Origin: an uncultured Dongia sp.
GTDB lineage: Bacteria; Pseudomonadota; Alphaproteobacteria; Dongiales; Dongiaceae
Length of the DNA: 64,000 bases
Direction: 5' to 3'
Assembly (NCBI RefSeq): GCF_936916975.1
Contig: NZ_CAKZGO010000013.1
Location: 1-64,000, forward strand
Position 1 is the first letter of the stretch. Every line of letters starts with the position of its first letter. Below, one piece after another: positions 6,913 to 11,888 of this stretch. The notes beneath the pieces are model-generated. The model was not told the origin of the DNA and did no database searches. It worked only from the letters and a program-made list of their open reading frames with translations. Position numbers and translations under genes: made by a program.

Positions 6913-7308
6913 ATGCGGCACAATTATCTCGCTTTGGCAGTGTTGGTCGCCGCCGGCCTGATGGCTGGCTGCGGCGGGCGTGCGGCGAACCCGACGCCTC
7001 AGGTTTCCATCTATGACCGATATATGAGCTGCGACGAAATCCGCGAGGAGGTCGCCCGCAATTACGAAGCTCAGTCCCTGCTGGTGCGTGACCGCGTCTG
7101 GGCTGAGGAAAAGAACGACATGATCATGGGGCTGTCGCTGGCCTTCCCGCCGGGCTGGTTCGCGGTCGACCCCACGGTCGAAGGCGAGTACGGCGAATCG
7201 CCTCAGGAGATCGAAGGCTCGGCCCTGGCGACACGAGCGCGCTATCTCATCGCGACGGCTCAGAAAGACGAATGCTGGCCCGATCCCAAGGTGTGGAGTC
7301 CGTTATGA
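6913..7308 (+). CDS. Putative lipoprotein
   Basis: This 131-residue protein has a lipoprotein signal: a basic start, a hydrophobic run (LALAVLVAAGL) and a lipobox ending at the cysteine of LMAGCGG (Cys20). The mature part contains MSCDEIREEVARNYEAQSLLVRDR, a helical pattern seen in small envelope lipoproteins, plus a more hydrophobic middle segment (MIMGLSLAFPPGWFAVDP). Two further cysteines (in MSCDEI and DECWPD) may pair. The stop overlaps the start of a second lipoprotein gene by four bases (ATGA), so the two are translationally coupled and may act together. No specific function is recognised. Confidence 0.75.
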   Translation: MRHNYLALAVLVAAGLMAGCGGRAANPTPQVSIYDRYMSCDEIREEVARNYEAQSLLVRDRVWAEEKNDMIMGLSLAFPPGWFAVDPTVEGEYGESPQEIEGSALATRARYLIATAQKDECWPDPKVWSPL

Positions 7309-7646
7309 AGCGCTTCGTATCCGTGCTGGGCGCGGCCGCGCTGATGCTCGGCGCCTGCGGTGGCGAGGTACCAAAGCTGGCGCAAGTCATCCGGCCGACC
7401 GACAGCGATATGGACTGCATGGATTTGCTGCGTGAAACCGGCGCCAATGACCTGGCGATCGCGCGGCTCGTCGACCGGGACGATCAAGTGCATCGCCGCA
7501 ATGTCCATTACACGGTGATCGACGGCATCATGGTGCCGCCGGCCATGCTGACCTTGGATTTCCGCGAGCAGGCACCCAAGGAAATGGCCGTGCTGCGCCA
7601 GCGCAACCAGCGCCTCATTGAACTTGCCGATATGAAGGGCTGCTGA
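7305..7646 (+). CDS. Putative lipoprotein, coupled to the preceding one
   Basis: This 113-residue lipoprotein has the signal MKRFVSVLGAAALMLGACGG, with the modified cysteine at residue 18. The mature part has two cysteines, one in DMDCMDLLRE and one as the last residue. It also has a helix-rich C-terminus (EMAVLRQRNQRLIELADMKGC) like that of its upstream neighbour. I chose ATG 7305, which overlaps the upstream stop in an ATGA arrangement, because it gives a perfect lipoprotein signal. Starts further upstream would bury the signal. Both lipoproteins share a Cys-acid-(I/L) helix (SCDEIREE and DCMDLLRE), which suggests ancient duplication or partnership. Confidence 0.75.
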   Translation: MKRFVSVLGAAALMLGACGGEVPKLAQVIRPTDSDMDCMDLLRETGANDLAIARLVDRDDQVHRRNVHYTVIDGIMVPPAMLTLDFREQAPKEMAVLRQRNQRLIELADMKGC

Positions 7647-7662
7647 ACGCCCGCTGCCGGTG

Positions 7663-8538
7663 CTAGCTCAGCAGGAACTGGCGCAGTCTTCCGATGATCT
7701 GGTCCGGGATTTCCTCGGGGATGAAATGCCCCGATTGGACCTGTTCGACCGTTACCCTCTTGGCCCAGCGCTGCCATTGCTTCAACGGATCGCGCTGGTG
7801 ATCGACGAAGGTGCCTGAATAAAGCGCCAAGGTGGGGCATTCGATCATGCGGCCAGCCTTCAAATCGGCAAGATCATGGGTGTCGTCGATCGTGGCGCCG
7901 GCGCGGTAATCGGCACAGGTGGCGGCGATCACGTCCGGCCGCCGGAAGCAGCGCTTGTATTCAGCCATGACCTCGTCGGGAAAGGCGCTCATGTCGAGCG
8001 CCCAATGGCGGATGATCCATTCCAGCCAAAAATCCGGATCGGCGCCGATCAGGCGTTCCGGCAAGCCGTTGGGCTGCGCGAGGAATCCCCAATGGAAGGT
8101 GCCGAGGGCAAACTCCTTGTCCGCCTGTTCCCAATAGGCCGCGGTGGGCAGGATATCGAGCGGGACCAGACGATGGACCCGGTCGGGATAATCGAGTGCC
8201 AGGCGATAGGCAACCCGGGCGCCACGGTCGTGGCCGATAACCGCAAACTTCTCATAACCAAGCATTTTCATGATTTCGACCACTTCGGCCGCCATCTGGC
8301 GCTTGGAATAATTACTGGAATCGGCCAGTGGGGCAGGGGCTGCGCTGTCGCCATATCCCTTCAGATCGAGGCAGACCACTGCCATCGAGCGGGCCAGAAG
8401 TGGTGCCAGATGCCGCCAGATGAGATGGGTCTGCGGATAGCCATGCAGCAGCACGACCGGGCTGCCTTCGCCGCCCTTGATGACCTTGAAACTGAGGTCA
8501 TTCAGTTGAACTTGCCAGCGGCTGAAGCCGTCGAACAT
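7663..8538 (-). CDS. Haloacetate (fluoroacetate) dehalogenase-like alpha/beta hydrolase
   Basis: This 291-residue alpha/beta hydrolase would cleave carbon-halogen bonds of haloacetates or a similar small acid. From the known fluoroacetate dehalogenase active site I can place the nucleophile Asp104 in GHDRGAR, carboxylate-binding Arg105 and Arg108, acid Asp128, the halide pocket His149, Trp150 and Tyr211, and His271 in SGHF. The spacing between these residues is nearly the same as in the characterised enzymes, and the RAGATID segment is also family-like. The oxyanion motif HGYPQ is at 32-36. It is cytoplasmic with no signal peptide. The gene is divergent from putA with a 179-bp shared upstream region. 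Epoxide hydrolase is the main alternative, but the His-Trp-Tyr pocket argues for dehalogenase. Confidence 0.8.
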   Translation of the reverse strand: MFDGFSRWQVQLNDLSFKVIKGGEGSPVVLLHGYPQTHLIWRHLAPLLARSMAVVCLDLKGYGDSAAPAPLADSSNYSKRQMAAEVVEIMKMLGYEKFAVIGHDRGARVAYRLALDYPDRVHRLVPLDILPTAAYWEQADKEFALGTFHWGFLAQPNGLPERLIGADPDFWLEWIIRHWALDMSAFPDEVMAEYKRCFRRPDVIAATCADYRAGATIDDTHDLADLKAGRMIECPTLALYSGTFVDHQRDPLKQWQRWAKRVTVEQVQSGHFIPEEIPDQIIGRLRQFLLS

Positions 8539-8717
8539 GCTGCCACTCCTGAAACTTTAACAAAGTATCGGATAGGTGGGGGCGCGCCGGTTTTGCCGCC
8601 CACTTTCTTCTGCCGCGGAACGGATTAGACTGTGCGCCGCGATTCCCGGTCAACCCCTCCCAGGACTGATTTCCCGCCCCCGTTCCTGGCCAATTTTCAA
8701 GGTTTCCTGACGCCATC

Positions 8718-11700
8718 ATGACGATGATCCTCGCTGCTCCCTCGACTGAAGCCAATTCCCTGCGCCAACGCCTGCGCGCGCATTACCGGGCTGACGAGAC
8801 CGGTATCGTCGAAATGCTGTTGGGGCAGGCGGAATTGCCCGCCGAAATCCAGGACCGAATTGCCGCCCGGGCGCGCGCCCTGGTCGAGGAGGTGCGCCGC
8901 AACCGGGTGGGACAAGGCGGTATCGACGCCTTCATGCATGCCTATGAGCTGTCGTCCCGCGAGGGCGTGGTGCTGATGTGCCTTGCCGAGGCCCTTTTGC
9001 GAATTCCGGATAACGAGACCGCCAACCAGCTGATCCGCGACAAGCTGAAGGATGCCGATTTTGCCGCCCATCTGGGCGAATCGGATTCGATGTTCGTCAA
9101 TGCATCCACCTGGGCGCTGATGCTCACTGGGCGCATCATGCAGCTCGACCAGACCAGCAGCGATCTTCGCGGTGTGCTGAAACGCCTGGTGACGCGCAGC
9201 GGCGAGCCGGTCATCCGTCAGGCGGTGACGCAGGCGATGAAGATTCTCGGCAAGCAATTCGTCATGGGCCGTGACATCAGCGAAGCGACCGATCGGGCGG
9301 AATCCGCCGAAAAGCGCGGCTATCGCTATTCCTATGACATGCTGGGCGAAGCCGCGCGGACCATGAGGGATGCGGAGCGTTATTTCGCGTCCTACGTCAA
9401 TGCGATCGCTGCTATCGGCAAGGCGTCGAAAGGCAAAGGCATCATCGCTGGCCCCGGCATCTCGATCAAGCTCTCGGCCATCCATCCGCGTTATGAATTC
9501 GCGCAAAGCGACCGGGTGATGAAGGAGCTGGTGCCGCAGGTGGTGGCGCTGGCCCAGGCGGCGAAGAAGGCCGGCATCGGCTGCACCATCGACGCTGAGG
9601 AAGCCGACCGGCTCGATCTCTCGCTCGACATCATCGACGCTGTGGCAGGTGATGCCAGCTTGAAGGATTGGGATGGGCTGGGCCTCGCCATCCAGGCCTA
9701 TCAGAAACGCTGCCTGCCGCTTATCGACTGGCTGGCCGATTGCGCGCGCCGCAATCGGCGGCGGCTGATGGTGCGCCTGGTCAAGGGTGCTTATTGGGAC
9801 AGCGAGGTGAAATGGAGCCAGGAGCGGGGCCTGCCGGACTATCCGGTCTTCACGCGCAAGGTCTCGACCGATGTCTCCTATCTTGCTTGTGCACGTCGGC
9901 TGCTGTCCGATGGACAGGCCTTCTATCCAATGTTTGCCACCCACAATGCGCACACGCTGGCCGCCGTCATCGAGATGGCAGGCGGCGAGGCGGCGGCACG
10001 GGAGAAGCTTGAGTTCCAGCGCCTCCATGGCATGGGCGAACCGCTCTATGATCAGGTGACGCCGGCGGAAGCGATGGGCATTCCGTGCCGTGTCTACGCG
10101 CCGGTCGGCAGCCATGAAGATCTGCTGGCCTATCTGGTGCGCCGCCTGCTGGAAAACGGCGCCAATACATCCTTCGTCAACCGCATCGTCGATGAGAAGG
10201 CGCCCTTGGATGCCATCGTCGCCGATCCGATCATGCAGGTACGGAAGCTGAAGACCAAGCCGCATCCAGGCATTCCGCAGCCGCGCAACATGTTCGGGTC
10301 GGAACGCAAGAACTCGGCCGGCGTCGACCTCACGGACCCTGAAGTGATGCAGAAGCTGGCGGCGGAAGTGACCGCGGCGGCGGCGAACCTCGTCAGTTCC
10401 GGGCCAATCATTGGTGGCGTCGAGAAGACCGGCAAGACCGAGAATGTCGTCAATCCGGCCGATAGTCATCAAGTTGTCGGTCGCGTTGTCCAGGCGACAC
10501 AGGCCGATGTTGATGACGCGATTGCACGCGCTTCCCGCGCCTTTCCGGACTGGGCGGCCACCAGCGCCATGACGCGCGCGGCCTGCCTGGACCGTGCCGC
10601 TGATCTCATGGAAGCGCGCCGTGGCGAAGTGCTGGCGCTTTGCATCCAAGAAGCTGGCAAGACCATTGGTGACGCCATTGCCGAATTGCGCGAGGCGGTG
10701 GATTTCTGCCGCTATTACGCAGCACGGGCGCGGGCCGATTTTGGTACGCCCCTCGTCCTGCCCGGGCCGACGGGCGAACGCAACCAGCTGCTGATGCAGG
10801 GTCGTGGCGTCTTTGCCTGCATCTCGCCCTGGAATTTTCCGCTGGCGATCTTCATGGGCCAGGTGAGCGCGGCGCTGGCTGCCGGCAATTGTGTGATCGC
10901 CAAGCCTGCCGAGCAGACGCCGTTGATTGCGGCTCTTGCGGTGAAGCTGCTGCATCTGGCCGGCATCCCGGGCGATGTCCTCCATCTGCTGCCGGGTGAT
11001 GGCCCGAATGTCGGCGCGCCGCTGACGCGCGATCCGCGCATTGCCGGCGTGGCGTTCACGGGTTCGACGGAGACCGCTCGCCTCATCAACCGGACGCTGG
11101 CCGCCAAGGACGGGCCGATCGTGCCGCTCATTGCCGAGACCGGCGGGCAGAATGCAATGATCGTCGATTCATCCGCCCTGCCGGAACAGGTGGTGCGCGA
11201 CGTGCTGATCTCATCGTTCCAAAGTGCTGGCCAGCGCTGCTCGGCCTTGCGCGTGCTGTTTGTGCAGCAGGATATCGGGTTGAAGCTTGAGGAGATGCTG
11301 TCGGGCGCCATGGCCGAATTGCGCGTCGGCGATCCGGCCCTGCTTGCGACCGATATCGGCCCGGTGATCGATGCCGAGGCGAAGTCGGTTCTCGACGCCC
11401 ATGCCGCGCGCATGGAACGCGAAGGAAAACTCATCTATCGCGTGGGGTTGGATAAGGCTTGCAGCAAGGGGCATTTCTTTGCCCCGGTCGCCTATCGTAT
11501 CGATGGCCTTAACCGTCTTCAGCGCGAAGTGTTCGGGCCAGTCCTGCATGTCGTGCATTACGCCGCCGACAAATTGGACGACGTGCTGGCCTCGATCAAC
11601 GCCACCGGCTATGGCCTCACGCTCGGCATCCACAGCCGTATCGATGGCAAGGTCAAATACATCGCCGAGCGGCTGCGGGTCGGCAATACCTACGTCAACC

Positions 11701-11888
11701 GCAACATGATCGGCGCAGTGGTCGGCGTGCAGCCCTTCGGCGGCGAAGGGCTCTCTGGTACAGGCCCCAAGGCGGGTGGCCCGCATTACTTGCACCGCTT
11801 TGCGACCGAACGCACCCTCACCATCGACACGACGGCAGCGGGCGGCAATGCGAGCCTGTTGAGTTTGGAGGAGGAGGGCGGCGCGTAA
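8718..11888 (+). CDS. putA: Bifunctional proline dehydrogenase / L-glutamate-gamma-semialdehyde dehydrogenase PutA
   Basis: This 1056-residue enzyme oxidises proline to glutamate in two steps with substrate channelling. The N-terminal helical arm is followed by the FAD-dependent proline dehydrogenase barrel (about 150-480), with RLVKGAYWD, FATHNAHTL and FQRLHGMGE motifs. The aldehyde dehydrogenase domain (about 530-1030) has SPWNFPLAIF, FTGSTETA, the general base Glu807 in AETGGQN, and the catalytic Cys841 in GQRCSALR. The N-terminal ribbon-helix-helix DNA-binding domain of enteric PutA is absent, as is the extra C-terminal domain, so it is a short, non-autoregulatory type. It is divergent from the dehalogenase-like gene and convergent with the ABC transporter genes. 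Confidence 0.98.
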   Translation: MTMILAAPSTEANSLRQRLRAHYRADETGIVEMLLGQAELPAEIQDRIAARARALVEEVRRNRVGQGGIDAFMHAYELSSREGVVLMCLAEALLRIPDNETANQLIRDKLKDADFAAHLGESDSMFVNASTWALMLTGRIMQLDQTSSDLRGVLKRLVTRSGEPVIRQAVTQAMKILGKQFVMGRDISEATDRAESAEKRGYRYSYDMLGEAARTMRDAERYFASYVNAIAAIGKASKGKGIIAGPGISIKLSAIHPRYEFAQSDRVMKELVPQVVALAQAAKKAGIGCTIDAEEADRLDLSLDIIDAVAGDASLKDWDGLGLAIQAYQKRCLPLIDWLADCARRNRRRLMVRLVKGAYWDSEVKWSQERGLPDYPVFTRKVSTDVSYLACARRLLSDGQAFYPMFATHNAHTLAAVIEMAGGEAAAREKLEFQRLHGMGEPLYDQVTPAEAMGIPCRVYAPVGSHEDLLAYLVRRLLENGANTSFVNRIVDEKAPLDAIVADPIMQVRKLKTKPHPGIPQPRNMFGSERKNSAGVDLTDPEVMQKLAAEVTAAAANLVSSGPIIGGVEKTGKTENVVNPADSHQVVGRVVQATQADVDDAIARASRAFPDWAATSAMTRAACLDRAADLMEARRGEVLALCIQEAGKTIGDAIAELREAVDFCRYYAARARADFGTPLVLPGPTGERNQLLMQGRGVFACISPWNFPLAIFMGQVSAALAAGNCVIAKPAEQTPLIAALAVKLLHLAGIPGDVLHLLPGDGPNVGAPLTRDPRIAGVAFTGSTETARLINRTLAAKDGPIVPLIAETGGQNAMIVDSSALPEQVVRDVLISSFQSAGQRCSALRVLFVQQDIGLKLEEMLSGAMAELRVGDPALLATDIGPVIDAEAKSVLDAHAARMEREGKLIYRVGLDKACSKGHFFAPVAYRIDGLNRLQREVFGPVLHVVHYAADKLDDVLASINATGYGLTLGIHSRIDGKVKYIAERLRVGNTYVNRNMIGAVVGVQPFGGEGLSGTGPKAGGPHYLHRFATERTLTIDTTAAGGNASLLSLEEEGGA

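Follow-up and report, generated by a model that had tools for sequence, protein, structure and literature searches.

Characterized fluoroacetate dehalogenases

Fluoroacetate dehalogenases (FAcDs) use an Asp nucleophile that expels fluoride, a His-Trp-Tyr trio that stabilizes it, and an activated water that hydrolyzes the ester intermediate (PMC11022551; this and the other papers cited here were available in part). In FA1, whose triad and pocket numbering includes Asp104, Asp128, Trp150 and His271, Trp150 is required for defluorination and dispensable for dechlorination; NOS0089 (Alr0039) and DAR3835 are active on fluoro- and difluoroacetate (PMC11022551). The pocket of H1 is described as the same as that of other FAcDs (PMC12955510). 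The results of Chan 2010 and Khusnutdinova 2023 are taken as given in the available parts of PMC11022551 and PMC11003709.

Five characterized FAcDs were compared with the protein studied here: FA1 (Burkholderia, PDB 1Y37), H1 (DehH1, plasmid pUO1), RPA1163 (Rhodopseudomonas palustris, PDB 3R3U), Alr0039/NOS0089 (Nostoc sp., PDB 3QYJ) and DAR3835. Positives are probably over-represented among characterized FAcDs. On pUO1, dehH1 is adjoined by genes for a methyltransferase, an FlK fluoroacetyl-CoA thioesterase, CrcB and a LysR regulator, and a similar cluster is reported in a fluoroacetate-growing Caballeronia (S22) in the available part of PMC11812338.

The gene and its closest relatives

The gene occupies positions 7663-8538 on the minus strand of the window (i.e., the whole 64,000-nucleotide stretch analyzed). 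It is a single intact frame of 291 amino acids plus stop, with an ATG start and no internal stops. Pfam assigned the product to the alpha/beta hydrolase fold (PF00561, 98.6 bits), through general hydrolase-type models only, and among the 25 NCBIfam models listed none was over its cut-off. Judging from its sequence, the product is very probably an enzyme of the FAcD family, whose members can break carbon-fluorine or carbon-chlorine bonds of small acids. Within this large and widespread family, which has already been described, the hydrolase is unexceptional.

Among the best 60 of 92 matches in the PDB sequence search, Alr0039 ranked highest (3.3e-89), ahead of RPA1163 (4.8e-77) and FA1 (1.1e-69), and the first hydrolase from outside the family followed after a drop, at 1.1e-34. 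Over 266-289 aligned positions, identity was 48% to Alr0039, 44% to RPA1163, 43% to DAR3835, 40% to FA1 and 39% to DehH1. Alr0039 has the same length, 291 residues. The Delftia D4B FAcD (9c9f) was also among the matches and lies outside the residue-by-residue alignment described below.

Active-site residues

The residues were checked in a MAFFT alignment of the protein with six PDB sequences, DehH1 and relatives out of public genomes. The initial annotation had matched Asp104, Arg105, Arg108, Asp128, His149, Trp150, Tyr211 and His271 to the catalytic, carboxylate-binding and halide-stabilizing residues of FAcDs, and this is borne out: all eight are found at those numbers and are identical in all five characterized FAcDs. 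The numbering is that of FA1, except that Tyr211 corresponds to FA1 Tyr212 (FA1 numbers from the available part of PMC11022551). All five references align at 263 positions, of which 62 show the same residue throughout, the eight catalytic and pocket residues included; against this background the probability that eight random positions would all be identical is ~7e-6, which indicates a homologous active site and excludes a chance match.

Conservation was then scored in 130 family members and 34 next-nearest relatives by sequence, these being the fetched loci, a subset of those listed. Matches spanning 200 residues or fewer, identical proteins and the copy from dehH1's own locus were dropped from this sample, the last because H1 was already a reference. 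The Asp-His-Asp triad lies at the FA1 positions in the alignment (FA1 triad from the available part of PMC11022551). It comprises the predicted nucleophile Asp104 (8227-8229, minus strand, as are all codons below; 130/130 of the family), which aligns with RPA1163 Asp110 and FA1 Asp104 (PMC11022551, in part), the predicted base His271 (7726-7728; 129/130) and the predicted acid Asp128 (8155-8157; 127/130). The sequence also carries the His-Trp-Tyr halide pocket, with the predicted pocket residues His149 (8092-8094; 112/130 of the family and 32/34 next-nearest relatives), Trp150 (8089-8091; 128/130 and 0/34), which is the discriminating residue, and Tyr211 (7906-7908; 128/130 and 32/34). The solved relative that departs here is Salmonella 4nvr, with Trp in place of His149. 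The Arg pair of the DRxxR motif is likewise present in the sequence, and is formed by Arg105 (8224-8226), found in 5/5 references, 130/130 family members and 0/34 next-nearest relatives, and Arg108 (8215-8217), found in 127/130 and 0/34; both are predicted, and we take them, to be carboxylate binders. Trp179 (8002-8004), the equivalent of RPA1163 Trp185, was outside the residues listed in the initial annotation and is also present in 5/5 characterized FAcDs and in 78/130 family members.

The full eight-residue set was found in 107 of the 130 sampled family members, against none of the 34 next-nearest relatives; with Trp179 added, 70 of the 130 have it. Arg105, Arg108 and Trp150 separate the two groups, and His149 and Tyr211 do not. 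As a sequence signature, the set is thus a mark of the family, chiefly through its Arg pair and Trp. The earlier claim that generic epoxide hydrolases seldom retain the His-Trp-Tyr trio is borne out in so far as none of the 34, which are putative epoxide hydrolases, has the whole trio; what does not stand is the part played by His149 and Tyr211, given that the absence is due to Trp150 alone.

These counts also bear on whether the protein is a generic epoxide hydrolase that matches the FAcD residues by chance, which we regard as very improbable. Such an enzyme would have the same fold, and His149 and Tyr211 are positions that most of the 34 relatives share; yet the pattern of the epoxide-hydrolase-like relatives, with no Arg pair after the Asp and no Trp after the cap His, is absent from the window protein, and Arg105, Arg108 and Trp150 are missing in every one of the 34.

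Phylogenetic and structural placement

The tree, built by a quick method, has 143 rows: the window protein, seven references, the 130 family members and five hand-chosen next-nearest relatives of the 34. It splits the family from these five with an SH-aLRT of 99, which further argues against a generic epoxide hydrolase. The window protein clusters with its counterparts from three congeners (SH-aLRT 100); the sister group of this clade consists of four proteins from a second genus in the taxonomic family (SH-aLRT 98), and the two together lie inside a 29-row group with RPA1163 and the Pseudomonas aeruginosa protein 4b9a (SH-aLRT 89). FA1/H1, DAR3835 and Alr0039 are in other lineages, FA1 and H1, which share the eight residues and Trp179, forming a separate one from that of the window protein. 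The characterized FAcDs are scattered over the family, with the window protein nested among them; the deep branching order is uncertain, since the tree leaves 55 of its 140 inner branches open.

An AlphaFold2 model built on a thin five-row alignment reached a mean pLDDT of 70.6 and a pTM of 0.74, the core being well modeled and the cap poorly. In the cap, pLDDT falls below 50 over residues 131-159, a stretch that includes His149 and Trp150, so the geometry of these two residues is taken from the sequence alignment. With this model, Foldseek placed Alr0039 and RPA1163 entries on top (first row E 1.5e-27, TM 0.85). VIA-align gave Z scores of 29.3 for 3qyj, 29.1 for 3r3u, 28.0 for 1y37 and 27.9 for 8sdc, its top row, 4b9e, being a tie at 29.4. 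Both comparisons are at fold level only. At that level, the model confirms an alpha/beta hydrolase fold that is closest to FAcD structures, with the P. aeruginosa 4b9 entries tied.

The tie is the structural point in favor of an epoxide hydrolase, given that the P. aeruginosa protein (4B9A/4B9E) is titled a putative epoxide hydrolase in the PDB. This protein is 43% identical to the window protein and has the Arg pair and His-Trp-Tyr, but differs in having Thr131 at the triad acid Asp128 and Met at Trp179. The PDB titles of the 4b9 entries mention a T131D mutant and bound MFA. As a side observation, a family member that has no triad acid and yet an MFA-bound entry may be slow or non-hydrolyzing. 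Among the matches listed in a literature search on 4B9A, none was relevant to its source publication.

Predicted chemistry and departures from the references

In the proposed mechanism, a small 2-haloacid would be held by its carboxylate through Arg105 and Arg108, and Asp104 would attack the alpha carbon in an SN2 step. His149, Trp150 and Tyr211 would accept the leaving halide, and the His271-Asp128 pair would activate a water, upon which the aspartyl ester would be hydrolyzed and glycolate released. By homology, the protein should follow this chemistry and should hydrolyze chloro- and fluoroacetate in vitro.

Defluorination or dechlorination of haloacetates had been put forward as a serious possibility, and sequence, tree and fold support it: they place the protein in the full-pocket subset of the FAcD family, and its nearest solved relative, Alr0039, has all eight residues and Trp179 and is a reported defluorinase of fluoro- and difluoroacetate (PMC11022551, in the part available). 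Haloacetate hydrolysis is the activity best supported by the sequence of the window protein, and it is probable. The best explanation of the gene is, with good though not high confidence, a stand-alone FAcD-family member with 2-haloacid hydrolase chemistry.

The first screen of candidate dehalogenases by Chan 2010 reportedly had a low success rate, and the refined screen is said to have succeeded for about half. These rates are the reason why our confidence goes no further. If active, the protein would be another natural defluorinase candidate, diverse from the five studied (39-48% identity), from which work on organofluorines could usefully start.

The window protein departs from the references at a few sites. 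Residues 240-246 (YSGTFVD; 7801-7821, minus strand) make up a loop; at this place most family members, Alr0039 included, have Trp-Gly. This loop is unlike that of all references, RPA1163 (249-253) among them, and it is kept in the three own-genus orthologues examined, one of which has Ile for Val245; the loop varies among the references too. Trp174-Ile175 stand in place of Ala180-Lys181 of RPA1163, which otherwise shares the eight residues and the equivalents of its Trp185 and Tyr141. PDB titles indicate that others altered RPA1163 Lys181 and Trp185 in complexes with bulkier fluoroacids. Alr0039 has Met for Tyr135 of the window protein. The differences at 240-246 and 174-175 may alter the substrate range.

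Such differences would fit an enzyme of the FAcD family whose substrate is now a different small carboxylic acid or ester and whose defluorinase activity is slight or nil. The pocket would then still serve to bind the carboxylate and to carry out nucleophilic catalysis, in a physiological reaction other than dehalogenation. The loop is specific to the clade, and the Trp174-Ile175 pair adds to this; on the other hand, the loop is also variable among characterized FAcDs, and the five compared members are all reported FAcDs (PMC11022551, PMC12955510, both in part). We consider such a shift rather unlikely, and 2-haloacid hydrolase chemistry is preferred.

Gene neighborhood and selection

The divergent neighbor is putA (8718-11888, plus strand), which encodes proline dehydrogenase and aldehyde dehydrogenase domains and is separated from the hydrolase gene by a 179 bp intergenic region (8539-8717). 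On its other side, the hydrolase gene is convergent with a small frame at 7272-7646 that has no Pfam match and whose start, by eye, resembles that of a lipoprotein; farther off are gatB and an amidase-family (GatA-like) gene. The hydrolase gene thus stands alone, in line with the description of putA as its neighbor and of a site that lacks a halo-catabolic operon.

The hydrolase gene is divergent to putA in eight genomes of two genera: four of its own genus (the window's, G001, G006 and G002) and all four seen of the second genus. In congener G005 (L063, ~9824-9922), the gene order is the same without the hydrolase, with ~100 bp from putA to the small gene. In G004, putA is present and the hydrolase is not nearby, and in G003 the searches, at their thresholds, detected neither gene. 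Three other genera, represented by four genomes, had no full-length hydrolase copy near putA; the sequence examined stops 1.3 kb upstream of putA in one of the four, and in another a weak 110-residue match lies ~4 kb past the putA end. The comparison covered the genomes above, with the putA regions of G008 and G012 outside it.

The hydrolase is under purifying selection, with dN/dS values of 0.06, 0.06 and 0.16 against three orthologues, compared with 0.09-0.12 for putA and 0.03-0.10 for gatB; these ratios are rough, as the dS of the hydrolase is 0.8-1.04, near saturation. The empty orthologous spot in one congener would suit a decaying or non-functional copy, but with an intact frame, kept catalytic residues and such ratios, decay is hardly credible. 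The gene instead looks like an old, selected yet dispensable occupant of its spot. A functional tie between the hydrolase and putA is possible, and the shared position leaves it at that, given that the GatA-like gene and gatB hold their place too.

Within the putA/hydrolase gap, the window shares a 17-bp block (8641-8657) without any change with three own-genus genomes, and much of the rest varies. A sigma-70-like pair was read by eye in this block; a consensus scan of 7500-8900 returned none, so no promoter is claimed there.

Fluoroacetate module and natural role

The proteins encoded next to dehH1 on pUO1 were used as tblastn queries (E 1e-4). FlK, the methyltransferase, CrcB and LysR all gave no match in the window, and hence no catabolic or resistance cluster of adjoining FlK, methyltransferase and CrcB genes was found around the hydrolase gene, unlike dehH1, nor anything else there that ties it to organofluorine metabolism. 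The same queries gave no match in 15 family-gene loci with flanks of ~5-10 kb, two of which are paralogue loci. The genome itself has one CrcB, on another contig. A search for fluoride riboswitches in the genome, which as a control was positive in 4 of 14 known genomes, yielded none among the 150 scored of 1,035 first-look candidates.

The absence of a fluoroacetate or fluoride-resistance module nearby argues against a dedicated fluoroacetate catabolic pathway. It argues for low-level or incidental haloacid detoxification as the role, or for a reaction on another small alpha-substituted acid.

The wider distribution of the family is relevant here. Relatives at E 1e-25 were found in 80 of 289 genomes of the class and 61 of 299 of the phylum, with up to eight candidates scored per genome and a few relatives being of the next-nearest kind; 356 plasmid records have a family relative at E 1e-30. 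Since 107 of the 130 sampled members have the full set, it is usual in the family and not rare. In our judgment, with a pocket this common, the residue set is a poor indicator of a natural role related to fluoroacetate, and a fair one of chemistry. That full pockets and relatives are so common in the class and phylum, and that the gene sits beside putA in two genera and not beside crcB or FlK, also fits the enzyme shifted away from dehalogenation that was considered above.

A broader suggestion, which we make tentatively and regard as possible though not favored, is that the many FAcD-family genes without a module, the present one among them, serve a common, unrecognized reaction whose natural substrate is a small alpha-substituted acid, with or without a halogen, and that fluoroacetate hydrolysis is a side activity of the conserved pocket. 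If this were true, the conserved spot beside putA in two genera would be a clue to the role. A limited literature search found no statement on the natural role of operon-less FAcD-family genes.

Two further genes of the genome are recorded as observations. An FlK-family protein (G000:C14, L204:7797-8216) is 43-45% identical to the dehH1 neighbor of pUO1, and its contig differs from those of both FAcD-family genes. The second FAcD-family gene (L002/L051; G000:C23:121090-121929) encodes a paralogue that is 39% identical to the window protein and keeps the eight residues, with Asn34 and Lys179. An SDR gene and an MmgE/PrpD-family gene lie downstream of it, with ABC transporter genes, as read from translations, between them, and these neighbors suggest that the paralogue may belong to a catabolic cluster.
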